NCBI RefSeq assembly: GCF_018332695.1
Contig: NZ_BOQN01000087.1
Location: forward strand, 124,001 to 188,000
DNA length: 64,000 bases
Reading direction: 5' to 3'
From: Paractinoplanes toevensis
GTDB taxonomy: Bacteria > Actinomycetota > Actinomycetes > Mycobacteriales > Micromonosporaceae
Shown: positions 5,248 to 49,134 of the stretch, one piece after another
Position numbering within the stretch: the first letter of the stretch is position 1
Layout: each line of letters begins with the position of its first letter
Notes under the pieces: model-generated
Told to the model about the DNA's origin: nothing
The model's input: the letters and a program-made list of their open reading frames with translations, nothing else
Database searches by the model: none
Made by a program: the position numbers and the translations under genes

Positions 5248-6077
5248 TTCGGCTCGATCGCGCCCGTCGCCAGCAGCACGATCAACAACGAACCCAGGAC
5301 CACGCGGTACGCGATGAAAATGCTGTAGGAGTGCTTCGAGATGTACTTCAGCAGCCACGACACCGCGAAGTAGCCGACGATGAACGACACCACCGTCGCG
5401 GTGATCGTGTTGACCCAGCCCACCCCGGCCGAGATCTGCGGCGCTTCGTCGTGGATCTGCAGGATCGTCGCCCCGAACAGCGCCGGCACCGACAGGAAGA
5501 ACGACAACTTCGTCACCGTCACCCGGTCGAAATCGCGCAGCAGACCCGCCGACATCGTCGCCCCCGACCGCGACACGCCCGGAATCAGCGCCAGGCACTG
5601 CGCCGTACCGATGATCAGCGTGTCCTTCCAGGTGGTGTCCCCCTCGTGGCGCACCTGGGTGGCCGCATGATCGGCGAACGCCATCACCCCGGACCACAGG
5701 ATCAGCGCCCCCGCCACGAACCACAGGCTGCGCAGCGTCGTCTCGATCGTGTCCTGGAAGGTCAGCCCGACGATCCCGATCGGGATCGTCCCGATGATCA
5801 CCGCCCAGCCGAACCGGTAGTCCTGCTCCCGCGCCGCCTTGCTGAACAGCCCCTTGAACCACGCCGGAACGATCCGGACGATGTCCTTCCACAGGAAGAT
5901 CAGGGTCGCGAACACCGCACCCGACTGGATGATCGCCGTGAACGCGGTGATATCCGGCGAATCGATCTCATACCCGAGAAGCTTCTCCACGATGGTCAGG
6001 TGACCGGTGCTGGAGATAGGGAGGAACTCCGTAAATCCCTCCACCGCACCCAGCAGCACCGCCTCGACAATGTTCAC
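5244..6077 (-). CDS. uppP: Undecaprenyl-diphosphatase UppP (BacA)
   Basis: 277 residues, the normal length of the family. It dephosphorylates undecaprenyl diphosphate at the membrane to recycle the lipid carrier for cell-wall synthesis; extra copies give bacitracin tolerance. Both signature motifs are present: EFLPISSTGHL near residue 18 and PGVSRSGATM near 170, with about seven hydrophobic helices. The start is GTG. The downstream DUF3626 gene overlaps by 4 bp, so uppP heads a four-gene run of coupled genes. Confidence 0.96.
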   Translation of the reverse strand: MNIVEAVLLGAVEGFTEFLPISSTGHLTIVEKLLGYEIDSPDITAFTAIIQSGAVFATLIFLWKDIVRIVPAWFKGLFSKAAREQDYRFGWAVIIGTIPIGIVGLTFQDTIETTLRSLWFVAGALILWSGVMAFADHAATQVRHEGDTTWKDTLIIGTAQCLALIPGVSRSGATMSAGLLRDFDRVTVTKLSFFLSVPALFGATILQIHDEAPQISAGVGWVNTITATVVSFIVGYFAVSWLLKYISKHSYSIFIAYRVVLGSLLIVLLATGAIEPK

Positions 6078-6131
6078 ACCCGACCGCCTTTGTCCCGAAC
6101 CCCTGACCGCCGGAAAGCATAGGGGGACGCG

Positions 6132-7073
6132 TCATCCCCGAGCGCGGCGGGCACGCGCCGCCGCCAGGGTGTAGGCCGGATCACGATCAAGGTTGTGCCG
6201 GTCCCGGTCATAGCGGCGGGTCGTGCGCGGATCGGCGTGACCCATCGCGTCCTGCACGTCCTCCAGCGGCACCCCCTCCGACCGGGCCGCCGTCGCGAAC
6301 GCGTGCCGCAACGAGTGCGGCGACAACCGGTCCGCCGCCGCGATCCCCGCCTCCCGGGCCAGCCGGCGGATCAACCGGAACACCGCATGCCGGTCGATGC
6401 GCCCACCCGTCGACGTCAGGAACAACGGACCGTCCTCGGCACCCCGCAACGCCAGGTAGTCGTCAAGCGCCTCGGCCGCGTCCTCGGTGAGCACCCGCCG
6501 CCGCGGACGGCCACCCTTACCCACGAACCGCACCGTCCGATGCCCACGCTCGGTGCCCACGTCCGCCAGGTCCAGACCCACCAGCTCACCCACCCGCAGA
6601 CCCAGGTCCGCCAGCAGGGTCACCACCGCCCGGTGCCGCGCGCCCGCCGCCCGGGCCACACCCAGCAGCGCATCGACCTCCTCCGGCGACAGCCCGACCG
6701 TCGCCGAGTGATCCCTCGACACGTACGGGCGGTCGGCGCCGGACACCGGATTGAACTCCACCGCCCGCAACTTCACCAGGAAGTCATACCAACTCGACAA
6801 CCCCGACAATTTGCGGGCAACGGTGGCGGCCGCCAACTTCCGCGCCTCCAACCCCCGCGCATACGCGTTCACATCCAGGAACGACGCCCGCAAAGGCTCG
6901 ACACCACGCTCCGCGCACCAGCCCAGCCACCCGGCCACATCACGCCGGTACGCCGCCCGGGTGTGCTCCGACAACCGCCGATTCGCCAACCACGCCTCGG
7001 TGACCTGCTCCGCCGCACCCAACCCGGCGACCGCGCCGCCACCCTGCCTCGGCACCACCTGCATACCGGCCAT
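6132..7073 (-). CDS. XerC/D-type tyrosine recombinase
   Basis: 313 residues with an N-terminal SAM-like core-binding domain (about 20-110) and a C-terminal catalytic domain. The catalytic set is complete: R in LGLRVGEL, K in VGKGGRPR, HSLRH, GHADPRTT and the nucleophile Tyr in RRYD. It would cut and rejoin DNA through a 3'-phosphotyrosine. The ATG at 7073 begins 4 nt after the stop of the ABC-F gene. A role in chromosome dimer resolution is possible, but the location beside an ABC-F gene rather than near usual xerC neighbours leaves it open. No att-like repeats or integrated element were seen next to it. Confidence 0.85.
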   Translation of the reverse strand: MAGMQVVPRQGGGAVAGLGAAEQVTEAWLANRRLSEHTRAAYRRDVAGWLGWCAERGVEPLRASFLDVNAYARGLEARKLAAATVARKLSGLSSWYDFLVKLRAVEFNPVSGADRPYVSRDHSATVGLSPEEVDALLGVARAAGARHRAVVTLLADLGLRVGELVGLDLADVGTERGHRTVRFVGKGGRPRRRVLTEDAAEALDDYLALRGAEDGPLFLTSTGGRIDRHAVFRLIRRLAREAGIAAADRLSPHSLRHAFATAARSEGVPLEDVQDAMGHADPRTTRRYDRDRHNLDRDPAYTLAAARARRARG

Positions 7074-7077
7074 CGTC

Positions 7078-8670
7078 TCAGCTCTCGGACACCGCACCCG
7101 CCGCGACATGCCAGCGCCGCCCGTATCCGACCGCCTCCGCGAAATACCGGTCATGCGTCACCGTGACCACCGTCCCCCGGAACCGCCGCAACGCCTCCTC
7201 CACCACATCCAGCGCGTCGAAATCCAGAAAGTTCGTCGGCTCGTCCAGCACCAGCACCCGCGCCGGCCCGTTCACCAGCACCGCCAGAACCAGACGCCGC
7301 AACTCCCCCGCCGACAGACTCCGGGTCCGCGCCTCCCACTGATCCGGACCGAACTGATGCCCCAGCAACAACCGCTCCGCATCATCCACATACACCGGAA
7401 CCCGCTGCCGGAAGAACTCCATCACCGTCGCATCCGACCGCAGTCCGTCACCGGTCTGCGGCAACACCCCCACCTCGTCGCCACCGGCCTCGGCCAACGC
7501 CCGCACCAGCGTCGTCTTCCCCGCCCCGTTACGACCGGTCACCAGAATCCGATCACCACGCCGCACATCCAGATCCACCCCGTCCAGCAGCACCCGATCC
7601 CCGAACGCCACCCGCAGACCCCGGAGCTTCACCACCACTTCACCGGCCTCGGCCACATCCACCGGGAACGACAACGTCAACGGCGGCCGCGACGCCGGCC
7701 TCGCGATCCACCGCGTCGACTCCATCTGCCGCCGCAACCGCCGCTCCCGGACCTTCGCCTTGCGCGCCACCAACCGCGACACCCGCTTCAGATGCGGAGC
7801 CGCCGCCCCCATCCCCTTCGCCAGCTCGACACCGCGGGAAAACTCCTTCGTCCGCTCGATGTCCGCCTCCCACCGGCGGCGATCCTTCTCCTGCGCCTCG
7901 AAGTCCAGCAGCAGCTTCTCCCACCGCCGCTGCTTCTCCGCCCGGTACGCCGTGTACCCGCCACCCGGATAGTCCTGCGGCTCGTCATGAATCCCGTCCA
8001 GCTCCACGACCCGCGTCACCGTGGCATCCAGGAACGCCCGGTCATGACTGACCACCAGCACCCCACCCGGGAAATCCCGCAACCACCCCTGCAGCCACGC
8101 CGCGCCCTCGGCATCCAGGTGATTGGTCGGCTCGTCCAGCAGCAACAGGTCCGGCTCCGCCAGCAACGCCCGCGCCAGCAGCAGACGCGCCTGCTCGCCC
8201 CCGCTCACCTCGGCCAGCGTCAGCCCATCGGGCAACTCAGCGATATCGAGCCGCTGCCGGATCTCCACCAGCCGCGACTCCGCCGCCCACCCTTCCAGGG
8301 CCGTCCACCGCTCCTGGACCGCCCCGAACTCCTCCAGCACGTCCTCACCGGCCGCCAGCCGCGCCTCGAGCCCGCGCAACGCCGCGGTGACCTCGGCCAG
8401 CTCACCCAGACCGGCAGTCAGGAACGCACCCACCGTGCCCTCGGGATCCGGCATCTGCTGCGGCACATAACCGACCCACGTGCCCGGCCCGCGCGTGACG
8501 GCGCCGGCCAGCGGCTTCAGCTCACCGGCGAGCAACCGCAGCAGGGTGGTCTTCCCGGCACCGTTCGGCCCGACCACACCGATCCGGTCGCCGTCTCCCA
8601 GCACCAGGTCGAAACCCTCGAACAGCAGGTCACCGTCGTGGGAGTAGGAAAGGGAAACAGCCTTGAGCAA
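7078..8670 (-). CDS. ABC-F family ATPase (ribosome-protection type)
   Basis: 530 residues with two fused nucleotide-binding domains and no membrane segments. Domain 1 has GPNGAGKTT (about 36), SGGEQAR and LLLLDEPTNHLD. Domain 2 has GRNGAGKTT, LSAGELRR and VLVLDEPTNFLD. A charged linker (about 235-310) separates them. ABC-F proteins bind the ribosomal E site and act as translation factors or displace antibiotics; the size and linker suit the resistance branch, but specificity cannot be called. The start is TTG, supported by GGAG 6 nt upstream. It heads a likely two-gene unit with the recombinase. Confidence 0.9.
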   Translation of the reverse strand: MLKAVSLSYSHDGDLLFEGFDLVLGDGDRIGVVGPNGAGKTTLLRLLAGELKPLAGAVTRGPGTWVGYVPQQMPDPEGTVGAFLTAGLGELAEVTAALRGLEARLAAGEDVLEEFGAVQERWTALEGWAAESRLVEIRQRLDIAELPDGLTLAEVSGGEQARLLLARALLAEPDLLLLDEPTNHLDAEGAAWLQGWLRDFPGGVLVVSHDRAFLDATVTRVVELDGIHDEPQDYPGGGYTAYRAEKQRRWEKLLLDFEAQEKDRRRWEADIERTKEFSRGVELAKGMGAAAPHLKRVSRLVARKAKVRERRLRRQMESTRWIARPASRPPLTLSFPVDVAEAGEVVVKLRGLRVAFGDRVLLDGVDLDVRRGDRILVTGRNGAGKTTLVRALAEAGGDEVGVLPQTGDGLRSDATVMEFFRQRVPVYVDDAERLLLGHQFGPDQWEARTRSLSAGELRRLVLAVLVNGPARVLVLDEPTNFLDFDALDVVEEALRRFRGTVVTVTHDRYFAEAVGYGRRWHVAAGAVSES

Positions 8671-9245
8671 GAAAATCTCCAGAAGCAGACACCGACAGGG
8701 GTACGCCCACAGCCGTTCACGCAGGCCAGGACGTCACGGAGTGCGGAGTCGCTATCACATGGAGAATGCCGCTCCCGGGCTCGACCGATGTTCCACCGCC
8801 GACATTGCCCGCCCGGCGCCGCACGCGCAACCGGTTTTCGGGCCGTCGCCCTCTTCCGGCACGGTCACCCCTGGGGATGACTCCGTGGTCACGTGCGTCC
8901 CGTCGTCGCGGCCGGCCCGGGTCCGCCCGCCTTTCGAGCGGCTGTGCCGGCCCGCGGTGCGCTCATGCCGTACGAAATGGGCCTGACCTGGGGCTCGGCG
9001 TAGCCGGGTGGATGTCGTTGATTCCTTTTTAGTTCTTGGGGTGCGCCGGTGTCCTGGCGCACCCGCTGTAGAGCGTCCTAGGATGCAGCTTTGGTTACTG
9101 CGTTTTCGCTCACGTGCCGGGGACTGCCGGACGACGCGCTCCAACGCTCAGGCGCACAATGGGCGGCGTGCCGCGTCCTTCGTCCAGCTCACCGCCGATC
9201 CGGCACACAGCCGATCCCGCGCGGACCCGTGAAGACCTCTCCCAC
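8671..9245. other. Long intergenic region upstream of the siderophore-like operon
   Basis: About 575 bp between the divergent ABC-F gene and the first NIS synthetase. I see no convincing gene in it. Its right half holds the structured element at 9017-9085. The 160 bp from 9086 to the ATG would be an unusually long leader if transcription starts after that element. Confidence 0.6.
9017..9085 (+). promoter_or_regulatory. Structured element A: hairpin plus TCCTAGGA box
   Basis: It begins GTTGATTCCTTT. A perfect 9-bp stem follows, GGGTGCGCC (9039-9047) with GGCGCACCC (9056-9064) around an 8-nt loop, then GTAGAGCGTCCTAGGATG ending at 9085. TAGGAT at 9079-9084 fits an actinobacterial -10 hexamer and lies in the palindrome TCCTAGGA. 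A homologous element with a different but equivalent hairpin sits at 15601-15670. Confidence 0.55.
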
Positions 9246-11030
9246 ATGCGGCCTGAGCTGCTCGAACGCTACGATTCCGAGCTGCCGGGAGCCCGCGCCG
9301 CGGTGATGGGCCGGCTGCTCGGAGCGCTTGACCGGGAGGCTCTGCCCGGGCTGGTTCTCCGAGGTGGCGGCCAGGTGTCGTTCCAGGGAGTGACGGTCCG
9401 CTATCCGCCCGAGGCGGCCGCGGCGTTCGCGGTGGCCCAGCCCGGATTGTCGGTGACGGTCCGAGCCGGCAACGGGCTCCGGGCCGGCGGCCCGATCGTC
9501 GACGAGACGCGGAACGGCGCACCCGACGCCCCGCGCGGCGGGGGCCGGCATGCGCACGGTTCCGGCGAGAGCGAGAGCGAGCGGCCAGGAGGTGGCCGGC
9601 ACTCTCGTGGGCGCCGCCCGGCCCCCCGCACCCGGCGCGGCGGCGCGCTCGGTGGCACCCAGCAGGAGGAGGACACCCGCCCGAACGTCGCCGGCGGGCG
9701 CGGCTGGGACAGCGAGCCGGGCCGCCACGGGACGGGCTGGGACGACGACTACGGCTACCTCGAGGACCCGGAACCGCCCGGAGCATTCGTCACCGACCCC
9801 GCCACGCTCATCCGGATCCTGTGGCCGGGCAGCGATCTCGCCACCGAGATCGACAACAGCGTCGCCAACATGGCCCTCGCCCGGGCCGCCAACCCCGTGC
9901 AACGGCTGCCGCAGGCCGGCGATCCGGATGGCCTCGCCCGAGCGGAACAGTCCATCACCGACGGACACCCGCTGCACCCCTGCGCGCGCACCCGCGGCGG
10001 GATGAGCGTCGCCGACGTCCTCGCCTACGCGCCGGAACACTCCCCCGTCATTCGGCTGCGCCGGTTACGGGTTCCCGCCGACCGCTGGTACGGCACCGCC
10101 GAACCCGTCCTGCTCGCCCACCCCTGGCAGGCCGACCGGATCCGCGACCGGTACCCGTGGCTGACCGACGACGGCGAGACCGCACCGGTGCGGCCGCTCA
10201 TGTCGCTGCGCACCGTCGTCCCGGTCGGCGGCGGCCCGCACGCCAAGACCGCCGTCGACGTGCAGATGACCTCCGCCGTCCGGACCGTGTCCCCCGCCGC
10301 CGTGCACAACGGGCCGGTCCTGTCGAAACTGCTGCGCCACGTCACCTCCGGCCTCCCGATCGACGTGCTCGCCGAAACCGCCGCCGGCGCCGTCCTCGTC
10401 GACGGCGTGCCGCAACGCCACCTCGCCTACCTGACCCGCGAGGCACCCCGCCTCGCCGAGGGCGAAACCGTCGTCCCGATCGCCCTCTACGGCGCGTCGC
10501 CGCTGCTCATGTCGACGGTCCCCGACCCGTACGCCTTCCTGACCCTGATCGGCAGCCTGCTGTTCGCGCCCCTGCTCAGCGTGCTCGAGCGCGGCGTCGC
10601 GCTGGAGGCACACGGCCAGAACACCCTCGTGGTGCTGCGCGACCACCGCCCCACCCGCATCCTCTACCGCGACCTCGGCGGAGTGCGCGTCAGCGCCCGC
10701 CGTCTGACCGCCGCCGGCCTCGACACCCCACCGCTGCACGGCGACCTGCCCAGCGACGACCCACAGGTGCTACGCACCAAGCTGTCCGCGGCCGCGCTCG
10801 GCACCGTCGCCGCCGAGCTCATCGCGGCGCTGACCCGCCACCACGGCGCCGACCCCGCCCGGCTGTGGGGCATCGTCGCCACGGCGATCCGGGAGACCGG
10901 CACCGCCGACGCGCCCCACCTGCTGCGCGACCCGCTGCCGGTGAAGGCGACCACGGCCATGCGCCTGGCCGCCGACCCCCTCGACGACATCTGGGCCCTT
11001 CTGGACAACCCCATGGCGGCACACGTATGA
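9246..11030 (+). CDS. IucA/IucC-family (NIS) siderophore synthetase 1
   Basis: 594 residues. NIS synthetases adenylate a carboxylate such as citrate and condense it with an amine or alcohol to build hydroxycarboxylate siderophores. Visible family motifs are HPLHPCARTRGG (241-252), HPWQ (about 294), KTAVDVQMTS, NGPVLSKLL, the EAHGQN metal/ATP site and RDLGG. Residues about 75-175 are a Gly/Arg/Glu-rich low-complexity insertion just before the conserved core, unusual for the family. The ATG at 9246 is preferred to the GTG at 9114 because similarity begins there, though the Shine-Dalgarno is weak (GAAG). It overlaps the next gene as ATGA. Confidence 0.88.
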   Translation: MRPELLERYDSELPGARAAVMGRLLGALDREALPGLVLRGGGQVSFQGVTVRYPPEAAAAFAVAQPGLSVTVRAGNGLRAGGPIVDETRNGAPDAPRGGGRHAHGSGESESERPGGGRHSRGRRPAPRTRRGGALGGTQQEEDTRPNVAGGRGWDSEPGRHGTGWDDDYGYLEDPEPPGAFVTDPATLIRILWPGSDLATEIDNSVANMALARAANPVQRLPQAGDPDGLARAEQSITDGHPLHPCARTRGGMSVADVLAYAPEHSPVIRLRRLRVPADRWYGTAEPVLLAHPWQADRIRDRYPWLTDDGETAPVRPLMSLRTVVPVGGGPHAKTAVDVQMTSAVRTVSPAAVHNGPVLSKLLRHVTSGLPIDVLAETAAGAVLVDGVPQRHLAYLTREAPRLAEGETVVPIALYGASPLLMSTVPDPYAFLTLIGSLLFAPLLSVLERGVALEAHGQNTLVVLRDHRPTRILYRDLGGVRVSARRLTAAGLDTPPLHGDLPSDDPQVLRTKLSAAALGTVAAELIAALTRHHGADPARLWGIVATAIRETGTADAPHLLRDPLPVKATTAMRLAADPLDDIWALLDNPMAAHV

Positions 11031-39331: not shown

Positions 39332-40234
39332 GTGTCCCCAGAGGGATCGACAGACGCGGACGTCGAGACGGCCGACAGACGCACCCTGCGTTACCAGGCG
39401 GTCGGCGCCCCCTCGGGTTACCCGGTGTTCCTCATGCACGGCACCCCCGGCAGCCGCATCGGTCCCCGGCCCCGCGCCGGCGTCCTCTACCGCCTGGGCG
39501 TCCGCCTGATCAGTTACGACCGGCCCGGTTACGGCGGCTCCGACCGCAAGGCCGGCCGCAGCGTCGCCGACTGCGCGGCCGACGTCGAGCGGATCGCCGA
39601 TCACCTCGGGCTCGGCACGTTCGCCGTGGTCGGCCGCTCCGGCGGCGGCCCGCATGCGCTGGCCTGCGCGGCCCGGCTGCCCGACCGGGTCTCCCGCGCC
39701 GCGGTGCTGGTCAGCTTCGCACCCAACAACGCCGGCGACGACCTCGACTGGTACGAGGGGATGAACGACGCCAACGTGCGCGGGTTCGCCACCACCCCGG
39801 CCGAGGAGCAGAAACTCGTGGAGAGCCTGCGCCTGCAGGCCGACCGCACCCGGCGCAGCCCGGTGACCCTGCTCGAATCGCTCCGCGGCCAGATCAGCGG
39901 CCCCGACCGGGTGGTGGTCCAGGACCCGACGATCGAGCGGCTGCTGCTGGAGGCGTACGCGGAGGCGACCCGCCCCGGCCCGTACGGCTGGATCGACGAC
40001 ATCCTCGCCCTGCGCCGCGAGTGGGGTTTCCCGCTCGCCGCGATCCGCCAGCGGGTCCGGCTGTGGCACGGCGCCGAGGACAACGTCGTGCCGGCCAGCC
40101 ACACCCGCTGGCTGGCCGAACGCCTCCCCGACGCCGACCTGCAGGTGCAGAACGACAGCGCCCACTTCGGAGCGATGGGCATCCTCCCGTCCATCCTGTC
40201 CTGGCTGGCCGAGGAACCCTCCCTGGTCATCTAG
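39332..40234 (+). CDS. Alpha/beta-fold hydrolase
   Basis: 300 residues. The oxyanion motif is MHGTPGSRIG near residue 34, the nucleophile elbow is VVGRSGGGPHA near 100, the acid is in HGAEDNVVP and the base is His in DSAHFGAM. Expected to hydrolyse an ester, epoxide or similar bond; substrate unknown. Start is GTG; the 190-bp gap upstream holds nothing else recognised. Its TAG stop shares CTAG with the convergent fxsT-like gene. Confidence 0.9.
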   Translation: MSPEGSTDADVETADRRTLRYQAVGAPSGYPVFLMHGTPGSRIGPRPRAGVLYRLGVRLISYDRPGYGGSDRKAGRSVADCAADVERIADHLGLGTFAVVGRSGGGPHALACAARLPDRVSRAAVLVSFAPNNAGDDLDWYEGMNDANVRGFATTPAEEQKLVESLRLQADRTRRSPVTLLESLRGQISGPDRVVVQDPTIERLLLEAYAEATRPGPYGWIDDILALRREWGFPLAAIRQRVRLWHGAEDNVVPASHTRWLAERLPDADLQVQNDSAHFGAMGILPSILSWLAEEPSLVI

Positions 40235-43200
40235 TACGGGTGCGGGTCCAGGGTGCGGTGCAGGTAGCGGCGTTCGCGCATGGCCTCGGCGGCCGGGTGG
40301 CCGACGCCCAGGGCCCGGATCAGGCGCTGGAGCACCTCGTTCTCCTCGTCGGGGGACGCGCCGTGCAGGTCCCGGCGCATCAGCACCAGGTTGGCGGCGC
40401 AGCGGACCGCGTCCGGGTGTTCCGGGCCGATCACCTGGTCGGCCCGGGCGGAGATCGGCAGGAGCAGTTCGTGCGCCTGCGGCACCGCGCCCCACTCGGC
40501 CATGAAGATCGCCTGGTTCATCCGGGCGGCCAGGGTGTACGGGTGTTCCGGGCCCAGCACGATCTCGAACGAGTCCGCCGCCCGCAGCGCCAGCTCCCGC
40601 GCCGACGTGAGGTCGCCGCGCGCGCGGGCCACCGCCGCCCGGTTGTTCAGGCAGGACACCGTGTACGGGTGTTCCTCGCCGAACCGCTCGGTGTAGCGCC
40701 GCTGCATCTGCAGCAGCTCCGCCTCGGCGCTGGCCGCCTCGCCCACCGCGAGCAGGTTGACCGCCCGGCTCAGCCGGCAGGTCAAGGTCTCCGGCTGGAA
40801 CGGCCCGAGGACCTGGTTCAGCGTCTCGTACGCCGTCTCCAGGTGCTGGGCCGCGTCCTGCGCCCGCCCGGCGCTGCGCTCGGACACGGCCAGGTTGGTC
40901 AGGGCGTTCAGGGTGCGGGGTGCCTCCTCCCCGTAAGCCTGCCGGCACCGGCCGAGGATGTCGCGCAGGAGCGTCACCGACTCCTCGTACTCGCCGGCCT
41001 CGCGCAGGTCCCGGCCGAGGCTGCCGCCGGCCAGCAGGGTGACCGAGTGCTGCGGGCCGAGGATCATGCCGGCCCGGGTGAACACCTGCCGGGACCGGTC
41101 GCGGGCGGCCCGGAAGTCGCCGACGAACCGCAGCGACGCGGCCAGGTTGTTCAGGGCGAGGAGGCTGCGCTGGTGGTCCTCACCGAAGTACTCCACCCAG
41201 GCCGCGGTGGTCTCCTCGTCCAGCTTGCGGGCCTCCGCGTAGCGGCCCAGCGCGCGCAGGTCGCCGCCGAGGCCACCGGCGGTGATCAGGGTGTGCGGGT
41301 GGTGGTCGCCGAGCAGCCGCCGCTGCTCGGTCAGGATCGCCTCGTCCATCTCCCGTGAGGTCTCGAACTCGGCCTGGTCGCGGACGATGTTGGCCAGGTT
41401 GAACCGCAACTGCAGCAACTGCCGGCTGAGCACGGACCGCGCTTCGGGGTCGGTGACGGTCTCCCGGAGCTGTTCCCAGCGGCGCACGTAGTCCTCGCCG
41501 ACCCGGCGGCCGTCGTTGAAGCCGCCGGCGAACCAGATGTACCGCAGCCGGTCGATGATCAGCCGCCGGACCGGTTCCTCGAGGGACTGGTGGACCCGGG
41601 CGACCTCCAGGTGCGGCCAGATCATCTGGAAGCGCCGCCAGTTGCCCGGGTCGTCGACCTCGCCGGACGGGCGGGCCGCGGCCAGCACCAGGTGCACCTC
41701 GCGGCGGGCCTCGTCGCGCTGCTGCGACGTCATCTGCTGGCGCACCACGTGCTGCACGATCCGGTGCACCCGGATCTGGCCGCCGCTGACGTCCACCTTG
41801 AGCAGAGCCAGCCGGTTGATCTGCTGGACCAGCGCGCCGCGGTACATGGTCTCGGTGACCATCGGGTCCAGCGGCCGCAGCAACTCGGCCATCCGGTCGC
41901 TGTAGACCAGGTCGAGCGCGACCTCGGGGGCCAGCACCGAGCACAGCTGCAGCAGCCGGTAGGCGGCCGCCGACCGCTCCTTGAGGCGCTGGAGCGACAG
42001 GTCCCAGATCGGCTGGAGGTCGGACGGGCCGTACTCGTCGAGGTGACCGAGGTATTCGGCGACCGGCTTGCCGGTGTCGGCGAGCCAGGCGCCCGCGGCC
42101 GCCACCGCGATGGGCAGGTCGCCGAGCGCGTCGGCGAGCCGGCCGGCGTCGTCCGGCCGCATCGCCGGCACCCGGCGGCGCAGGTGCGCGATGCTCTCCC
42201 GGCGGTCGAACACGTCGACCTGGATGGATTCGGCGCGCTCCGCCCAGCCGGCGTCCCGGGACGTGATGATCACGTGGCCGCCGGGGCCGCGGGGCAGGAA
42301 CCGGGTGACCGTCTCGACGTCCTCGGCGTTGTCCAGAATGACCAGCCAGCGGCGCAGCGACTCGCCCCGGGCCAGCGCCGACAGCACCGCCCGGGCCTGC
42401 TCGACGATCGAGCCGCCGCCCGGCAGGCCGAGTTCCCGGCCGAGCTCGGACAGCTGGGTGTCGATGAACGTCACCGGGTCCGAGTTGATCCACCAGACGA
42501 AATCGTAAGCGTTGCGGAAGCGGTGGGCGTACTCCATCGCGACCTGGGTCTTGCCGATACCGCCCATGCCCTGCAGCGCCACCGGGGAGGCGCCGGAGAG
42601 CACCACCGGGCTGGAGGTGGTCTCCAGCCGGCTGCGCAGCTCGATCAGGTCGTCCTCGCGGCCGGTGAACTGCACGTTGCGGATGGGCGCGTTGAACAGC
42701 AGCGTCGCCCGGCCCGGGTAGCGCAGGCCGACCCGGCCGCGGTCGAAGTTGTCGACCGGGTGGCCGACCAGCTTCAGCAGCCGGGTGATCGCGATCTCCT
42801 CGGGCTGGCCGACCAGGAAGGCGGAGTCGGCATCGGACTGTCCGCGCAGCGGCCGCACGTCGGCCACGTAGACGACCAGCGGGGCACGCGGGTCGGTGCG
42901 CTCCCGCGGCACCCGCGCCTCCTCCCGCTCGGCGTTGGCCGGCGAGATGACGGTGAGCAGGCGGCCGTCCGGGATCGCCCCGCTGTCCGCGTCGAGCCCG
43001 CTGGTGACCAGGTTGACGGTCACCCCGGCGGTCTCCAGCACCCGGGCGATCCACTCCGCCCACAGCCGGTCGTCGGGGGCGTGCCGCAGCGCCACCGTGG
43101 TCTCCGGCAGCACGGCCGCGCGCACGAACCGGGCCGCGGTGCGTTCCCGCAGCGACTCGTCCATCAGCGGCAGGCCGGTCACCTCGCCGCCGGTGAGGTA

Positions 43201-44100
43201 GTCGGTCAGCGTCTCGTAGGCGGCCAGCATCGAGGTGCGCGAGCCGGGCCGGTCGCCGAACGTCGCGAGGGTCTCCTCGTACGCGTAGAAGGGCTGATAG
43301 GGCACCTCGACGGTGGCCCAGTACGCGTCCCGTTCGGACGGGTTCATGCCGGCCGGCAGGCTGGTGAAGCGCTGCCGGGCGACGAGCCGGCCGGCGTCGG
43401 CGCGTTTCTTCTCGGCCAGGTCGACCCGCATCGGCACCGGCAGGATCCGGATGGGCCGGCGGCCGGTGAGCCGGGTGACGTTGGCGGCGACCGTGGCGGC
43501 GCCGTCGATGCCCTGCTCGCTGAAGGTGAAGCAGTCGATCAGCACGTCCGGCATGTGCACGGTGCAGATGCCGGCCACGTCGCTCCACCCGGTACGGCTG
43601 TCGATCAGCGCGTAGTCGTAGTGCGCCTTCATGTCGTCGCGGAGCGCGTCGAACAGCTGGCCGCCGCCGTAGCGTTCGTAGAACTCGTCCCAGTCCCGCT
43701 CGTAGATGCTGCGCGCGTAGTTCTGGTCCTGGTTGCCGGCCGCCAGGAAGTCGATCACGCCGCCGGCCGGGAAGTGCGGCCAGTCGATGCTGAACGCGTG
43801 CCGGCTGACCCGGGCGAAGTCGCGGTGCCAGTCGCCGGGCCGTTCCACGTTCTGCATGGTGGCCTGCTCGTAGCGGCGGACCAGCTCGACGACGCCGCCG
43901 GAGGAGGCGAGGGCGCCCGGGTCGATGAAGGGCCGGAAGAAGCGGTGCAGGCCGGGTGAGTCGAGGTCCCAGTCGGCGACCAGCACGCGCTTGCCGTTGG
44001 CGGCCAGGATCCAGGCCACGTTGGCCAGGGCCATGGTCCGGCCGGTCCCACCCTTGTACGAGTAGAACGTGACGACCTTGCCGCCCGAGTCCTCAAGCAT
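40231..44100 (-). CDS. fxsT: FxSxx-COOH system protein: ParA-like + NB-ARC + TPR
   Basis: 1289 residues. Residues about 1-310 are a MinD/ParA-type ATPase (deviant Walker A KGGTGRT at 16-22, VADWDLDSPG). Residues about 330-450 look like a degenerate TIR-type or alpha/beta region (LRHAPDDRLWAEWIARVLE). NB-ARC follows from about 475, with Walker A GMGGIGKT (511-518), WLVILDNAED and HVIITSRD. Tetratricopeptide repeats fill about 890-1280 (ALNNLAASLR, ALTNLAVSER, CLNNRAAVARARG). This matches the large TPR protein of the Fxs system. It resembles NLR-type immune sensors: STAND ATPase with repeat sensor. The start overlaps the upstream TIR-like gene by 8 bp. Confidence 0.9.
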   Translation of the reverse strand: MLEDSGGKVVTFYSYKGGTGRTMALANVAWILAANGKRVLVADWDLDSPGLHRFFRPFIDPGALASSGGVVELVRRYEQATMQNVERPGDWHRDFARVSRHAFSIDWPHFPAGGVIDFLAAGNQDQNYARSIYERDWDEFYERYGGGQLFDALRDDMKAHYDYALIDSRTGWSDVAGICTVHMPDVLIDCFTFSEQGIDGAATVAANVTRLTGRRPIRILPVPMRVDLAEKKRADAGRLVARQRFTSLPAGMNPSERDAYWATVEVPYQPFYAYEETLATFGDRPGSRTSMLAAYETLTDYLTGGEVTGLPLMDESLRERTAARFVRAAVLPETTVALRHAPDDRLWAEWIARVLETAGVTVNLVTSGLDADSGAIPDGRLLTVISPANAEREEARVPRERTDPRAPLVVYVADVRPLRGQSDADSAFLVGQPEEIAITRLLKLVGHPVDNFDRGRVGLRYPGRATLLFNAPIRNVQFTGREDDLIELRSRLETTSSPVVLSGASPVALQGMGGIGKTQVAMEYAHRFRNAYDFVWWINSDPVTFIDTQLSELGRELGLPGGGSIVEQARAVLSALARGESLRRWLVILDNAEDVETVTRFLPRGPGGHVIITSRDAGWAERAESIQVDVFDRRESIAHLRRRVPAMRPDDAGRLADALGDLPIAVAAAGAWLADTGKPVAEYLGHLDEYGPSDLQPIWDLSLQRLKERSAAAYRLLQLCSVLAPEVALDLVYSDRMAELLRPLDPMVTETMYRGALVQQINRLALLKVDVSGGQIRVHRIVQHVVRQQMTSQQRDEARREVHLVLAAARPSGEVDDPGNWRRFQMIWPHLEVARVHQSLEEPVRRLIIDRLRYIWFAGGFNDGRRVGEDYVRRWEQLRETVTDPEARSVLSRQLLQLRFNLANIVRDQAEFETSREMDEAILTEQRRLLGDHHPHTLITAGGLGGDLRALGRYAEARKLDEETTAAWVEYFGEDHQRSLLALNNLAASLRFVGDFRAARDRSRQVFTRAGMILGPQHSVTLLAGGSLGRDLREAGEYEESVTLLRDILGRCRQAYGEEAPRTLNALTNLAVSERSAGRAQDAAQHLETAYETLNQVLGPFQPETLTCRLSRAVNLLAVGEAASAEAELLQMQRRYTERFGEEHPYTVSCLNNRAAVARARGDLTSARELALRAADSFEIVLGPEHPYTLAARMNQAIFMAEWGAVPQAHELLLPISARADQVIGPEHPDAVRCAANLVLMRRDLHGASPDEENEVLQRLIRALGVGHPAAEAMRERRYLHRTLDPHPY

Positions 44101-45280
44101 CTGGTGATCCCTCTCCCCCGGAAATCCTGGGCAGGACGGAGTCGGCGCCCTTGGGCAGGAACACCGGGGCGTTCTTCCGGTAGACGGTGCAGGCGTTGTC
44201 GATGATGGACGGGAGCCGGTCGACGAGCCGGCCGATGTCCACGATGAGCGTGATCCGGCTCTGGGCCACCCCGGCGGCAGTCAGCGTAGCGGCGACCGAC
44301 TCGTACAGGCGGGCGCCGCGCGCGACGTACTGCGGATCGGAGTGGTCGGCGACCAGCAGCACCGTCGCCCAGTCGGGCAGCCGGCCGGCCAGCTCACGCA
44401 GCCGCTCCTTGCCGCCGGTGGTGCCGGCCAGCCACGGGTCGATCAGCACGAGGGCGGCGCCCTCGGCCAGCCGCAGCAGATCGGTTGCCCGGTCGGCGAT
44501 CCGGGCCGGCTGGCCGAGACGCTCGGCGACGTTCGCGACGTACTCCGCGATGGGGAACTTCTGCACCCCGCGGTACGGGTTCCAGCTGCGCGGGGACGAC
44601 CCGTAGGGTGCGGCGGCCCGCCCGCCGGGCCGCTCGGCGCGGGACGGCGCGAGCACCCCGACGGTGAACTGGATGTCGGTGGAGTCGGTCGGTTCGACCT
44701 CGACCTCGTCGATGGCGACCGCCTCGCGCCCGGGTCGCGGCGCCGCGGCGGCGGCCGTCACGATCTCGCGGGCCATCCGGGTCACGACGGTGCGGTACTG
44801 CCGGCGGTACATGGCCAGCCGGACCATCGCCTGCAGGCCCTCCTCGGCGTACTCCGGGATGCCGGCGCCGAGCCGCAGCGCCGCCGCCCGTTCCGCCTCG
44901 CGTTCCCAGCGCGGCCAAGGCACCCACAGCACCGGCAGGACGAACCGCTCGGCGTCGGCCTCGCCGTCGAACCGGCCGGTGAACGATGCCCTCTCGCGCA
45001 GCGGCCACGACTTGTTGAAGTAGCCCGGCGAGTAGAGCGCCACGAACACGTCGGTGCTGCTGAGCACCCCGGTCAGCTCGGCCTTCCAGTCGCTCATCGG
45101 GCGGACCAGGTCGTCGTAGTAGCCGACCGGGGTGGACGGTTCCGCCCCGGTCAGCTTCGCCACCTCGGCGGACAGCTCGGTGAACAGCCGGCCGGCCCAG
45201 TGGTCGGTGTCCGGACGGTCGTCGGCGCGCAGCCGCACCGAGTGGCCGTAGGAGAGGTAGAAGTAGTAGCGCGAGGTCAC
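44093..45280 (-). CDS. fxsC: TIR-like protein FxsC
   Basis: 395 residues. The N-terminal TIR-like domain (about 1-160) begins RYYFYLSYGHSVR and has STDVFVALYSPGYFNKSWPL, with a W-x-x-R-E pattern (W92, E96) at the place of the TIR NADase glutamate. The C-terminal half (about 220-380), with QKFPIAEYVANVAERLG, LVLIDPWLAG and RLVDRLPSIIDNACTVY, is the region typical of FxsC. GTGA overlap with the upstream TIR gene and 8-bp overlap with fxsT. Whether it hydrolyses NAD or only scaffolds is unknown. Confidence 0.85.
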   Translation of the reverse strand: MTSRYYFYLSYGHSVRLRADDRPDTDHWAGRLFTELSAEVAKLTGAEPSTPVGYYDDLVRPMSDWKAELTGVLSSTDVFVALYSPGYFNKSWPLRERASFTGRFDGEADAERFVLPVLWVPWPRWEREAERAAALRLGAGIPEYAEEGLQAMVRLAMYRRQYRTVVTRMAREIVTAAAAAPRPGREAVAIDEVEVEPTDSTDIQFTVGVLAPSRAERPGGRAAAPYGSSPRSWNPYRGVQKFPIAEYVANVAERLGQPARIADRATDLLRLAEGAALVLIDPWLAGTTGGKERLRELAGRLPDWATVLLVADHSDPQYVARGARLYESVAATLTAAGVAQSRITLIVDIGRLVDRLPSIIDNACTVYRKNAPVFLPKGADSVLPRISGGEGSPDA

Positions 45281-45945
45281 GGGCCACTCCTCTCGAACGT
45301 GGTGCGCAGGCCGTCCTCGCGCTCGAGGTACAGCGGTTTCACCCAGTAGGTGCGCCGGATCCGTTCCACGTGCTGCGCGATCCGCCAGACGACCGCCTCG
45401 TACACATTGACCTGCCCGGTCTTGAGCAGCCCGAGCATGCCCTCGGCCTCGTAGGCGGCGCGGTCGGCCGACGGCAGCCGGGGTGGCCGGAAGTAGTTGA
45501 CCTCGGCCACCACCGGCGGCAGGTCACCGGTCACCGGGGTCCACAGCACCGGGACGATGGCGCTCTCGGCCGGGTCGGCGTCGGGCGCCCGGGGCACCAC
45601 CTCGCGGCGGGCGAACAGGTCCCACTCGCGGGCGCACCACTCGCTGCGATGCAGGTAGGGCATCGAGAGCAGGCAGACGAACACCTGGCAGGAGCCGGCC
45701 GCATAGAGCACCCGGCGGCGCCACAGGTCGCCGCCGGCGGTGTCCACGTCGATGAAGCCGGCGCCCCGGCCGGGCATCGCGCCGACCAGATCGTTGACGT
45801 CGGCGGTGAGATCGTCGAAGAACCGGGTGACGAACCGCCCGGCCTCGCGGGGCGGGCCGACCGCGCGCAGGGGCGGCTTGGGGCGCGAATAGCTCAGGAA
45901 GAAGACCGGTGCGGCCGGATCCTCGTTCTTGAACTCGCCAGTCAC
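45277..45945 (-). CDS. TIR-domain protein of the Fxs operon
   Basis: 222 residues, essentially one TIR domain: VFFLSYSRPK at about 14-23, FFDDLTADVNDLVG, SCQVFVCLLSMPYLHRSEW, and W-C-A-R-E (W103 to E107) holding the presumed catalytic glutamate. It parallels the N-terminal domain of the next protein, so the operon makes two distinct TIR proteins. The GTG start has GGGGAGG 8 nt upstream; 55 bp separate it from fxsB. NADase activity is inference. Confidence 0.85.
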   Translation of the reverse strand: MTGEFKNEDPAAPVFFLSYSRPKPPLRAVGPPREAGRFVTRFFDDLTADVNDLVGAMPGRGAGFIDVDTAGGDLWRRRVLYAAGSCQVFVCLLSMPYLHRSEWCAREWDLFARREVVPRAPDADPAESAIVPVLWTPVTGDLPPVVAEVNYFRPPRLPSADRAAYEAEGMLGLLKTGQVNVYEAVVWRIAQHVERIRRTYWVKPLYLEREDGLRTTFERSGP

Positions 45946-46000
45946 CCGTCGTGCCTCCCCAGGACCCGGTGATCTCAGTCAACCATGCGCGGGCAACCGG

Positions 46001-48061
46001 TCACGACCACCCGGCCACCGTCTCGGCCATCCGCGCGGTGAACCGGCGGCCGGCCTCGGTGAGCCGCTCCCCCGATCGCAGGGCGGTCAGGGCGGCGGCC
46101 GTCCAATCGCGATACATCACATAGTTCGGCCGGGCCCCGGGAACCCCCCGCTCGGTGCGCCGCCGCCAGATGTCGGCGATGGCCAGATGGGCGTACGTGC
46201 CCTGGATGGCGGCCTCGATCGGGCGCGGGTCGGGCCGCCAGCCGACGGACAGCCGGTCGGCCACCGCGCTGTCCGGGACCAGGTCGATCAGGTCGAGCAC
46301 GGCGCCGAGCTTGGTGTGCTGGAACTCGTGCACCAGCATCACGGCCATGGCGGCCGGATCGTCGGTGTAGGCGATACCGAGCGCGCCGTACGCGTGCCGG
46401 GAGGTGGCGCTGCGCAGGGTGCCGTCCGGGGCGGGCACCAGCGGGGTGATCACCGTGACGCCGCGGCGCAGCCCGTCCGCCTGGTCGGGGGCGTCCCGCT
46501 CGACCCATTCCCACGCCCGGTCCAGCACGGACACCCAGGCCGAGGCGTCGCCGACCGGGCCGGCAGCCGGATATCCGAACCGGTCGCGGTACGGGTCGGC
46601 GTCGTCCAGCCGCACCGGCTTCCCGCCCAGCCGCACGTAGGTGGCGGCGGCGGACTTCTCCACCTCGGCGGCGAGCACCCCGAGGCGCCCGAAGTCGGGT
46701 TCGGAGTTGGACTCGTCGAGGCAGGTCACCGCCCAGGACCGCACGAACGGGCCGGCGATGACCTGGTTGAACGCGACCGGCGACCGGCGCTCCACCTCGG
46801 GCAGCGTCTTCCAGTCCCCGGCAAGCGCCGCCACCTCGCTCACCAGCGCCCGGTTGATCGCCAGTTCGGCGTCGGCCAGCAGCTCGACCGCCTCGGCGTC
46901 GCCGAATCCGTAACCGAGCTGGTCGAACACCGCGGGCGGGAGCGAACCGAGGTCGCCGGGCGGCGCCGGCCGTTCGTTGATGGTGATGATGAGCTCCTTC
47001 AGGTCGTCGCAGTAGACCGACGGATTGTCGAAGCCGTTCGCGGCCCGGTAGCGGTGCGCGGTCATCCCGCCGCCGCACTGCCGCACCACCGGGCAGGCCC
47101 GGCAGGTGGCCGAGAGCACGGCCAGGCCACCCCGGCGGCGGCGCATGGCGGGCTGCTCGGTGACCTCGTCGGCGCCGGCGGTGAAGACGGTGAGACCGGT
47201 CGCGCCGCCGCCGTCCACCGTGGTCTTCATCGAGTCGGGTTCCTCCCAGGCCCCGTCGGTCTCGATCACCACGATGTCGCCGGCGTCGATCCCGATGGCC
47301 TCGGTGGCGCTCGGGCCGCCGGCCGCGAGTGCGGCGATCGAGTCGAACAGCCTGATCGGCACCGGCCGGCCGTCGGCGACCCAGCGCTCGTGCACGGCCA
47401 GCAGCCAGGCCGCGTACGAGCCCGGCGGGGGCGGGTCGGCCCAGGTGGCGTGGGGCAGCAGCAGATCGATGCGGGGCGCCTTCTCGGCGAGCAGCGCCTC
47501 GTAGACGGCGATCGGGTCGTTGGTCAGGTCCACCGTGCACAGCAGGCCGGCGTAGAGCGGCCGGTAGCGGGGCTGCCGCAGCAGGGCGAGGGCGCGCAGC
47601 GTCTGCGGATGGCTGGTGGCGCCGTTGCGGAACCGCCGGTGGAGATCGTTGGCGGCCCGGTCGCCGTCCAGCGACACCCCGACCCGGACCCCGGCCTCGA
47701 GCAGCACCTCGGCCATCGGGGCGTCCAGGCGTACGCCGTTGGTCTGCATCCGCAGGCTCAGTTCGGCGGCCGGGCCGATCGTCTCGCGCAGCTCGCGCAG
47801 GACCTCGCGAAGGCGCGCAGCGCCGAGCAGCAGCGGTTCGCCGCCGTGCAGGATGACGCCGACCCGGGCGATGTCGTGCGCCCGGGCGTGATCGGCGATC
47901 CGCCCGGCGGCCGCCCGCACCGTCGCCATGCTCATCACCGGTGGACGGCCGCGCCACGACTGGTCGCGATGCTCGTAGACGTAGCAGTGGTCACATGCGA
48001 GGTCGCATCGGCTGGCGACCTTCAGCACGAAGTGGCGCAGCGGACGCCACGGAACCTCCAC
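46001..48061 (-). CDS. fxsB: FxsB-type radical SAM/SPASM peptide maturase with HEXXH domain
   Basis: 686 residues. The radical SAM cluster is C19-x3-C23-x2-C26 (RCDLACDHC), with GGEPLLLG near 73 for SAM binding. SPASM-like auxiliary-cluster cysteines are at C320, C323, C329 and C351. The C-terminal part has HEFQH (578-582), the HEXXH domain that marks FxsB. The family forms a three-residue cyclophane on the C-terminal FxS motif of FxsA. The GTG start lies 5 bp after the fxsA stop. HEXXH function (protease or structural) is not established to my knowledge. Confidence 0.95.
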   Translation of the reverse strand: MEVPWRPLRHFVLKVASRCDLACDHCYVYEHRDQSWRGRPPVMSMATVRAAAGRIADHARAHDIARVGVILHGGEPLLLGAARLREVLRELRETIGPAAELSLRMQTNGVRLDAPMAEVLLEAGVRVGVSLDGDRAANDLHRRFRNGATSHPQTLRALALLRQPRYRPLYAGLLCTVDLTNDPIAVYEALLAEKAPRIDLLLPHATWADPPPPGSYAAWLLAVHERWVADGRPVPIRLFDSIAALAAGGPSATEAIGIDAGDIVVIETDGAWEEPDSMKTTVDGGGATGLTVFTAGADEVTEQPAMRRRRGGLAVLSATCRACPVVRQCGGGMTAHRYRAANGFDNPSVYCDDLKELIITINERPAPPGDLGSLPPAVFDQLGYGFGDAEAVELLADAELAINRALVSEVAALAGDWKTLPEVERRSPVAFNQVIAGPFVRSWAVTCLDESNSEPDFGRLGVLAAEVEKSAAATYVRLGGKPVRLDDADPYRDRFGYPAAGPVGDASAWVSVLDRAWEWVERDAPDQADGLRRGVTVITPLVPAPDGTLRSATSRHAYGALGIAYTDDPAAMAVMLVHEFQHTKLGAVLDLIDLVPDSAVADRLSVGWRPDPRPIEAAIQGTYAHLAIADIWRRRTERGVPGARPNYVMYRDWTAAALTALRSGERLTEAGRRFTARMAETVAGWS

Positions 48062-48066
48062 CCGGG

Positions 48067-48225
48067 TCAGATCCCCGAGCCGAAGGAGGCAGTCACCTCG
48101 GACCGGTCACGTCGCACGATTCGATGCACGATCCGCGCCGCCGCGGTGCGATCGATCCGGTCGATCGGGCTGTTGCGCGCCTCGTCAAGCGGCGCAGGCG
48201 TGCCCGTGGTGGTGCTGCGTTCCAC
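48067..48225 (-). CDS. fxsA: FxSxx-COOH precursor peptide FxsA
   Basis: 52 residues ending ASFGSGI, an exact F-x-S-x-x-COOH terminus. The leader is charged and helical (DEARNSPIDRIDRT, ARIVHRIVRRDRSEV). The GTG at 48225 has GGGGGA 6 nt upstream, and the longer frame to 48279 lacks support. It is the substrate of FxsB encoded immediately downstream; Phe48 and Ser50 are the expected crosslinked residues, as inference from the triceptide chemistry of the family. First gene of the operon, behind its own promoter. Confidence 0.93.
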   Translation of the reverse strand: MERSTTTGTPAPLDEARNSPIDRIDRTAAARIVHRIVRRDRSEVTASFGSGI

Positions 48226-48265
48226 GTCGTGTCCCCCAAACGAGCGCTCAGGTGCGGCCGTTGCG

Positions 48266-48294
48266 AGCATAGACAACACCCGACGTCATGTCAC
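48266..48294 (-). promoter_or_regulatory. Promoter of the fxs operon
   Basis: On the minus strand, -35 GTGACA (48294-48289), a 17-nt spacer and -10 TATGCT (48271-48266). Transcription would start near 48259, giving a leader of about 34 nt with the Shine-Dalgarno of fxsA. The -35 lies over the stop codon of the upstream EamA gene, so the operon has its own promoter. Confidence 0.55.
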
Positions 48295-49134
48295 GGCGAC
48301 GGTTGGTGATCCAGTTGGGGTGCGGGCGCCCCGGCGGGTCGCGCCGATTCCGGCGGCGACCACCAGCGTGACGCCGGCGGCGCCGGCCACGCCGGGGATC
48401 TGGTGCAGGCCGACCGCCCCGATCAACAGGGCGAATGCCGGCTCGAGAGCCATCAGCGTGCCGAACGCGGCCGTCGTCAGCCTGCGCAGGGCGAGCATTT
48501 CCATGCCGAACGCGATGAGCAGCACCACGCCGAGCAGGAAGCCGCGCAGCAGCTGATCTCCCGTCAGTTTGCCCAAAGTGGACGGATCGACGGTAAGCGT
48601 GGCGACCAGGGCGGCGACCGGCATCGACACCGCGAGGCCCTTGATCCCGTCGACCCGGTCGCCGACCCGCTGGGTCAGGATGATGTAGGCGCCCCAGCAG
48701 ACCGCCGCACCGAGCGCGTAGACCACGCCCAGCGGATCGGCGCCGCCCTCCCACGGTGTGGTCAGCAGCAGCACGCCGACCGCCGCGCAGGCCGGCCAGA
48801 GCACCGAGCGGCGGTTCTGGGCGGCGGCGACGCCGAGCGGGCCGAGGAACTCGATCGCGCTGGCGGTGCCGAGCGGCAGCCGGCCCACCGCGGCCATGAA
48901 CAGGATCGTGGCTCCGGCGGTGGCCACCCCGAGCAGCGCGGCCGCGCCGAGGTCGCGGGCGGTGAAGTCGCGGGCTCTCGGCCGGATCAGGATGAGCAGC
49001 AGCAGGCCGGCCCAGGACAGGCGCAGCCAGGCGGCACCCTCGGCGCCGAGTTGGTCGATCAGGCCGACGCTCGCCGCGACGCCGGCCTGAACGGTCAGCA
49101 TCGCGGCCACGGCCAGTGCGGTTCCCCTCGTCAT
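48286..49134 (-). CDS. EamA/DMT-family transporter (RhtA-like)
   Basis: 282 residues with about ten membrane helices in two EamA repeats, including [20 protein letters not shown] and [20 protein letters not shown]. RhtA-like members export amino acids such as threonine or homoserine. Substrate unknown. Divergent from the LysR gene across 83 bp, so likely under its control. The 3' end carries the fxs promoter -35. Confidence 0.9.

Follow-up and report, generated by a model that had tools for sequence, protein, structure and literature searches.

The Fxs operon of Paractinoplanes toevensis and its recurrent alpha/beta-hydrolase neighbour

Standalone FxSxx systems of actinobacteria have been presented as parts of conflict systems (PMC7159879, Kaur et al. 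2020 eLife); they combine an FxSxx precursor and a radical SAM/SPASM protein with an HExxH part and an AP-ATPase that carries TPR and a MinD/ParA-like domain. We describe here an operon with all these elements, the Fxs (FxSxx-COOH) operon of the soil bacterium Paractinoplanes toevensis, found in a stretch of 64,000 nucleotides (hereafter the window), and its comparison with related loci. In its main-text FxSxx section, that article reads the HExxH part as a peptidase and the ParA domain of the AP-ATPases as inactive; the section contains neither two TIR proteins nor a hydrolase, an AAC(3)-like gene or SLATT, the last of which the article ties to GAP1 systems. Another article, PMC13118837, shares some of the terms but proved not to be relevant. 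On the side of the chemistry, the triceptide maturases MscB and ChlB and the ChlH-type alpha-ketoglutarate (aKG)-HExxH enzymes belong, in the accessible portions of the articles that describe them, to the same enzyme families as FxsB (PMC11002830, PMC12636437), and MscB makes a three-residue Phe(C4)-Ser(Cbeta) crosslink (PMC11002830). Compared with the MscB and ChlB systems, as those portions present them, the FxsA of the window carries a single FxS motif, placed C-terminally. The operon also recalls plant TIR-NLRs (nucleotide-binding leucine-rich-repeat receptors) and bacterial TIR effectors (RPP1, RUN1, SPARTA), with which it has in common a TIR fold with a WCxxE-type Glu, an NB-ARC switch and a repeat domain. 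Unlike in plant TIR-NLRs, its conserved TIR proteins are not fused to the NB-ARC protein, TPR stand in for the leucine-rich repeats, and the gene of a presumably modified peptide belongs to the operon.

The cluster is a member of the already described Fxs kind, in a form with two TIR proteins and no AAC(3)-like gene. A preliminary description of the locus had seen in it a candidate for an undescribed activity, which is too strong a claim in view of the FxSxx systems with AP-ATPase and ParA-like domain in the main text of PMC7159879 and of the Phe-Ser crosslink that the accessible text of PMC11002830 attributes to MscB; it had also held that the role of the TIR and STAND parts is not established, and indeed none is in the literature examined. 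What the comparison of loci adds is an alpha/beta-hydrolase as a recurrent component, links to AAC(3)-like and SLATT genes, and the absence of parts of the operon as modules. As to function, we consider it somewhat probable that the operon is an intracellular FxSxx-type conflict module, serving immunity or a programmed response, in which a cyclophane peptide would regulate the NLR-like FxsT and FxsT would gate the TIR enzymes. The chemistry of ribosomally synthesized and post-translationally modified peptides (RiPPs), NLR-like switches and TIR enzymes, usually studied apart, are thus united in one operon.

Genes and products of the operon

The five genes all lie on the minus strand in the order FxsA-FxsB-FxsC1-FxsC2-FxsT, with 5 bp between FxsA and FxsB, 55 bp between FxsB and FxsC1, and overlaps of 4 bp (FxsC1/FxsC2) and 8 bp (FxsC2/FxsT), just as the preliminary description had placed them. 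Curated NCBIfam cut-offs were used as membership thresholds in the hidden Markov model search that it had proposed, and FxsB, both FxsC proteins and FxsT exceeded them, identifying the operon as Fxs: TIGR04269, TIGR04267, NF040588, TIGR04276 and NF040586 were all passed, unlike TIGR04268 (FxsA). These family scores, together with a gene order that recurs in other genomes, argue against a chance arrangement. The operon had been called complete, which is a matter of definition: the AAC(3)-like gene found in many relatives is absent, and the convergent hydrolase lies outside the coordinates then drawn. The promoter that had been claimed corresponds to GTGACA-17-TATGCT (48266..48294, minus strand), the only promoter-like match in 40000-48800, where shuffled sequences gave 0.2 on average. 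It lies within a block, GTGACaTgACcTC..GTGTTGTCTATGCT, that five aligned relatives (L155, L154, L046, L047 and L049) also have upstream of FxsA, that is more weakly kept in L044, and that has no other match in the genome of P. toevensis (287 contigs) at up to 3 mismatches. The site, the conserved block and the lack of a second genomic match suggest that the operon appears to have a promoter of its own. The DNA of L046 and L049 becomes homologous to that of the window right at this block (48296).

Two sets of loci were compared. A scan of 200 genomes of the family gave FxsC over its cut-off in 68 and FxsB in 118, and 52 family loci including that of the window were picked by hand, mainly from those in which FxsC lies close to FxsB, so that this set is enriched for full operons. 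The 80 further loci, the 80 best of the 576 relatives listed by a scan with FxsT, come from Actinoplanes and its allies, Micromonospora, Streptomyces, Kitasatospora, Streptosporangiaceae, Catenulispora and others. Once 13 near-duplicates (FxsT at least 97% identical) had been removed from the 132, 119 non-redundant loci remained. With at least 5.5 kb of upstream sequence available in 111 loci, FxsB was found in 100, an FxSxx precursor in 95, an AAC(3)-like gene in 64, at least one FxsC in 104 and two FxsC in 47.

FxsA (48067..48225, minus strand; 52 residues, GTG start) is a RiPP-type precursor whose C-terminus reads F48-G-S-G-I52-COOH (ASFGSGI before the stop). By score it is not a member of TIGR04268 (15.6 bits, E 0.015, below the cut-off of 28), and a genome-wide search with that model listed only another place; of the family assignment expected earlier, the motif and the position fit and the score does not. 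We take FxsA as the precursor because of its exact C-terminal motif FGSGI, its place 5 bp from FxsB and the same F-x-S-x-x motif upstream of FxsB in relatives. Nearly all of the 52 family loci encode such an end immediately before FxsB, and one lies upstream of FxsB in 95 of the 100 FxsB-bearing loci among the 111, where the search required F.S.. and the F and S are hence fixed by the query. Of these 95 precursors, 85 end in I, L or V, with FNSSI in 17 and FNSAL in 10.

FxsB (46001..48061, minus strand; 686 residues) consists of a radical SAM/SPASM part (residues 8-362), with CxxxCxxC and SPASM cysteines, fused with an aKG-HExxH beta-hydroxylase-type domain (513-678). The preliminary description had made its identification depend on FxsB falling inside the FxsB family, and it does so with 525.6 bits against TIGR04269 (cut-off 370). 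The HExxH part scores 146.7 bits against TIGR04267 (aKG-HExxH peptide beta-hydroxylase; cut-off 40), with HEFQH intact. CxxxCxxC is conserved in 52/52 and HExxH in 51/51 rows from the first 52 loci; among the 100 FxsB of the larger sample the HExxH motif is lost in 26, mostly of Streptomyces, and the domain is absent in 2. The nearest solved structures are 9gm3 (ChlB radical SAM domain; FxsB residues 8-359) and 22nu (HExxH part). The InterPro entry of MscB is one that we take to be the FxsB entry. By homology, FxsB is predicted to crosslink Phe48 of FxsA to Ser50 in a three-residue cyclophane, with a loss of 2 Da. Given its match to TIGR04267, the HExxH part may further add 16 Da to FxsA, probably as a beta-hydroxyl group. 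In L050, L051, L057 and L058, the radical SAM and HExxH matches are in separate genes, so the fusion is not universal.

FxsC1 (45277..45945, minus strand; 222 residues) and FxsC2 (44093..45280, minus strand; 395 residues) reach 137.4 and 132.1 bits against NF040588 (cut-off 130). FxsC2 also passes TIGR04276 (72.6 bits, cut-off 55) with a second alpha/beta domain at about residues 205-370; FxsC1 matches the N-terminal FxsC model only. In the predicted model of FxsC2 (predicted local distance difference test score 87), residues 1-180 adopt a TIR fold that best matches the SPARTA TIR (Z 10.7, root-mean-square deviation 3.3 over 137 residues) and then plant RPP1 (Z 10.4). The second domain (~200-372 of the model) gives unspecific structural matches only, and Foldseek returned no match for FxsC2 at E<=0.001. 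FxsC1, whose TIR assignment is by profile only, finds the flax TIR domains 7vu8 (2.6e-06) and 3ozi (5.7e-06), and the conserved Glu of its SEWCAREW motif (E107) coincides in that alignment with the Glu of the plant TIR SKWCLMEL. This putative catalytic Glu (E96 in FxsC2) is kept in 157/159 FxsC domains, namely 52/52 of the FxsC1 type and 105/107 of the FxsC2 type. TIR fold and conserved catalytic glutamate, the sequence features of TIR NADases, are thus both found in FxsC1 and FxsC2, which makes it plausible, from sequence and model, that they are enzymatically active.

FxsT (40231..44100, minus strand; 1289 residues) begins with a KGGTGRT ParA-like domain, followed by a middle domain (~331-450), an NB-ARC/STAND NTPase and TPR, the last two also found by domain matches. 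It scores 899.6 bits against NF040586 (FxSxx_TPR; cut-off 300) and 130.9 against NF047398 (KGGVGR ATPase; cut-off 90), and both Walker A (GMGGIGKT) and Walker B (LVILDNAED) are intact, as in STAND/NB-ARC NTPases. In an alignment of 116 FxsT, from which four near-identical rows had been removed (among them L154, the second copy of L065), the STAND residues K517 and D590 are present in 116/116 and the ParA lysine K16 in 115/116; invariant columns number 57 in ParA, 22 in STAND, 10 in TPR and 4 in the middle domain. The ParA-like domain being the most constrained part of FxsT, it is more likely a nucleotide-binding domain that matters than an inactive one. Few parts of the operon are as conserved as its K-G-G-x-G-R signature, which contrasts with the view taken in the FxSxx section of PMC7159879. 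The middle domain looks TIR- or receiver-like; a clear TIR assignment was dropped, as receiver and TIR domains tie (Z 10.1 vs 10.0). Behind the single fxs operon of L029 (11102-18847), two FxsT genes stand in tandem.

By analogy with the TPR receptors of Firmicutes, which recognise Phr and PapR peptides, the C-terminal pentapeptide of FxsA could be released as a pheromone and read by the TPR of FxsT. It is the end of FxsA that is conserved, with a free C-terminal I, L or V in most precursors, the operon itself encodes a TPR protein, and the low number of invariant TPR columns next to those of ParA is what a ligand-facing domain might show. However, no export or import genes are widely shared among the loci, and the last residues vary so little (compare the frequent FNSSI and FNSAL) that they would make a poor strain-specific code. 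We judge a pheromone very improbable.

Recurrent neighbours of the operon

Clustering of the neighbouring genes of the 119 loci, with no families preselected, gave as the six commonest clusters FxsT (119), FxsB (107), the hydrolase (99), FxsC (95), AAC(3)-like (35) and SLATT (24). In the window, the third of these is an alpha/beta-hydrolase gene (39332..40234, plus strand; PF00561, 73.3 bits) that meets FxsT tail to tail with a 4-bp overlap; it matches 23 NCBIfam models, all below their cut-offs. The median distance after FxsT is 44 bp. Of 117 loci, 94 have the gene in convergent orientation no more than 2 kb from FxsT, and 6 have it so at 2-7 kb; where at least 7 kb of downstream sequence is available it is convergent within 7 kb in 53/64. 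Its triad is kept (S103 in 108/108, D250 in 107/108 and H278 in 107/108). Moreover, in 60 genomes of the genus, close homologues lie within 10 kb of FxsT in 32/36 cases among the matches listed, against 3/32, likewise among the matches listed, for the EamA gene at the other end of the operon (both counted by eye, the window itself included in each). The four exceptions are G143 (12.4 kb), G216 (L153; no FxsT in 18 kb), and G211 and G186 (no FxsT on the contigs among the matches listed). The hydrolase is therefore proposed as a recurrent component associated with the Fxs operon, outside the boundary first drawn, and work limited to the five genes could miss it. In PMC7159879, alpha/beta-hydrolases are named as partners in related conflict systems (caspase-type VMAP, GAP1) in three main-text mentions, none of which concerns FxSxx; a literature search combining these subjects gave no other relevant paper, most subscription journals being outside its reach. 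No vWA/MoxR (VMAP) cluster was recognised by eye among the recurring neighbours, those of the window having been Pfam-scanned in part. Downstream of FxsT in L021 and L026, a second hydrolase copy is found together with a lone ParA-like match (324 and 317 bits).

The AAC(3)-like acetyltransferase (PF02522, 248.2 bits; NF033082, 167.6 bits, below the cut-off of 270) is found upstream of FxsT in 64 of the 111 loci; 61 of these have it after FxsB and ahead of the first FxsC or FxsT. The operon of the window is without it. A SLATT gene (SLATT_3 125.5, SLATT_1 111.9 bits) is nearby in 26/119 loci and directly follows FxsT on the same strand in five (L116, L127, L130, L131 and L139). A protein with the motif GVTGHR (L090, L096, L098, L112 and others) was noted in 20/119 loci, 18 of them with SLATT; it has no Pfam match, and as its resemblance to SLOG was by eye it is left unnamed.

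The neighbours also bear on whether the operon makes a secreted or antimicrobial triceptide, that is, a bioactive cyclophane peptide for which FxsT, FxsC and the hydrolase would be regulators or self-immunity. Related maturases do yield triceptide natural products in the accessible text of PMC11002830, and the FxSxx section of PMC7159879 suggests "a peptide toxin or signal". An EamA transporter gene (48286..49134, minus strand; PF00892) adjoins the operon upstream in the window, and smaller clusters, identified by eye, resemble ABC transporters (15/119) and S1 proteases (14/119). On the other hand, no transporter or peptidase cluster, named by eye, occurs in more than 15/119 loci, FxsA has no obvious signal sequence by eye, and the EamA gene is clade-specific: of the 132 loci, just two (the window copy and L064) have it next to the operon, and it was also seen in L152 and L155. 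The EamA gene was therefore not retained as the exporter of the system, and we hold a secreted triceptide to be unlikely.

Differences at the same site and the proposed role

Paractinoplanes tereljensis (L155, the L064 locus) has the full gene order of the window. In Actinoplanes subtropicus (L065 = L154), exactly FxsC1-FxsC2 are missing at the same site, FxsA, FxsB, FxsT and the hydrolase are open, and no FxsC match was found in the genome at E<=0.001. The TIR pair is thus a removable cassette, and FxsA, FxsB and FxsT can stand without it. In L152 (G176), FxsA-B-C1-C2 are missing between the EamA gene and the FxsT start, FxsT and the hydrolase being kept. The L152 FxsT has lost K16, D45 and N591, which are invariant in the other 115, and a dependence of FxsT on the peptide is suggested. 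The L152 gap (window 44101-48318 vs L152 6230-6380) ends, by eye, at an ATGCT common to the promoter -10 region and the FxsT start, like a short-repeat deletion. Loss would be the simplest reading of both differences. Changes private to one protein at otherwise invariant FxsT sites number 5 in L119 (metagenome-assembled) and 5 in L152, and are absent from 95/116, among them the TIR-less A. subtropicus FxsT. The ratio of nonsynonymous to synonymous substitutions of FxsT was discarded, as L152 pairs (0.45-0.55) and other pairs (0.36-0.45) are too close. G216 (L153) was not kept as a clean empty site: the alignment holds in place on the hydrolase side alone, and the EamA gene is inverted.

We favour the intracellular conflict module because of the composition of the operon, its TIR and SLATT partners, its patchy occurrence and the lack of a widely shared exporter. 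In such a module, the modified C-terminal peptide would be a ligand of FxsT, as its trigger, or a brake on it, with the TPR domain facing the ligand. FxsT would gate FxsC1 and FxsC2, which may cleave NAD+ or make a nucleotide signal, and in Streptomyces and some relatives the SLATT membrane effector is a possible output. The linked hydrolase might trim, deacylate or destroy the peptide or its product. Should the peptide indeed control FxsT, modified peptides would join the intracellular immune ligands or brakes as a new class, for which the hydrolase, acetyltransferase and SLATT links offer concrete partners for testing.

The distribution of FxsT could also be that of a module that serves regulation or development, not immunity, in filamentous actinobacteria, its peptide reporting on metabolism, since S-adenosylmethionine, Fe-S, O2 and 2-oxoglutarate should all be needed to make it. 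FxsT has no match in plasmid (E<=1e-100) or phage (E<=1e-30) collections, so there is no sign of mobility and a mobile system was set aside; reading frames are intact, and many actinobacterial genera have the system. However, the occurrence is patchy (FxsC in 68 of the 200 family genomes), the differences at one site are gene-exact, and the TIR and SLATT partners point to conflict, so that we regard a developmental module as quite improbable.

Several observations weigh against the conflict module and its components as we propose them. The same lack of plasmid or phage matches is one, and the ABC-transporter-like and S1-protease-like clusters are another. Many TIR domains are not NADases. At E<=0.01, no PADLOC-DB 2.0.0 model was matched by FxsC1 or FxsC2, the match of FxsT is limited to residues 4-53 (PDC-M28B models), and FxsB matches pVip (27.7 bits). 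The hydrolase is elsewhere or turned round in 8/117 loci and is not seen in the available stretch of 9/117, five of which have less than 7 kb of downstream sequence; for one of these nine with a short downstream stretch (L049), the longer dropped twin L066 has the hydrolase 5.9 kb away, and for L053 (the locus of G143) the homologue is the one at 12.4 kb. Finally, L073, L079 and L091 have no recognisable FxsA or FxsB in 6.5 kb upstream of FxsT and L084 has an upstream HExxH match with no radical SAM match, the ParA lysine being intact in all four; a local peptide may be dispensable for FxsT, or the peptide may come from another locus.

We speculate further that the stapled pentapeptide is an endogenous brake, a guard molecule, of a bacterial NLR, an idea that we hold to be rather unlikely. 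Translation and the supply of S-adenosylmethionine, Fe-S, O2 and 2-oxoglutarate would keep the stapled peptide present and FxsT off; infection or stress that halts its renewal, or attack by the hydrolase, would switch FxsT on, and FxsT would free the TIR pair or SLATT and stop the cell. A brake fits L152, where FxsA and FxsB are absent and FxsT has lost K16, D45 and N591 as if disarmed, but decay from disuse fits equally well, and the L152 genome has other FxsC copies. As a strict rule, the brake has against it the loci without local FxsAB that retain K16. A rule that FxsT decays once FxsAB are lost was likewise given up, as L073, L079 and L091 retain K16; L152 is a single case.

Related genes elsewhere in the genome

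Three other places in the genome of P. toevensis carry related genes. In L011 (C14:31000-48000), a second FxSxx precursor (AGFNSAL), a stand-alone HExxH protein (TIGR04267, 138.9 bits) and a facing STAND-TPR gene occupy about 4359-8800, with no radical SAM match within the 17 kb. L010 (C131:55000-74000) has at 8563-10952 a stand-alone FxsB-type radical SAM gene (396.9 bits) with, by eye, a small AP-ATPase-like gene beside it; no FxSxx precursor was found upstream. In L165 (C65:11000-24000), a KGGTGRT ParA-like protein (5854-7873) has a C-terminal half that is protease-like by eye, and a weak FxsC-like match (36.6 bits) lies just upstream.

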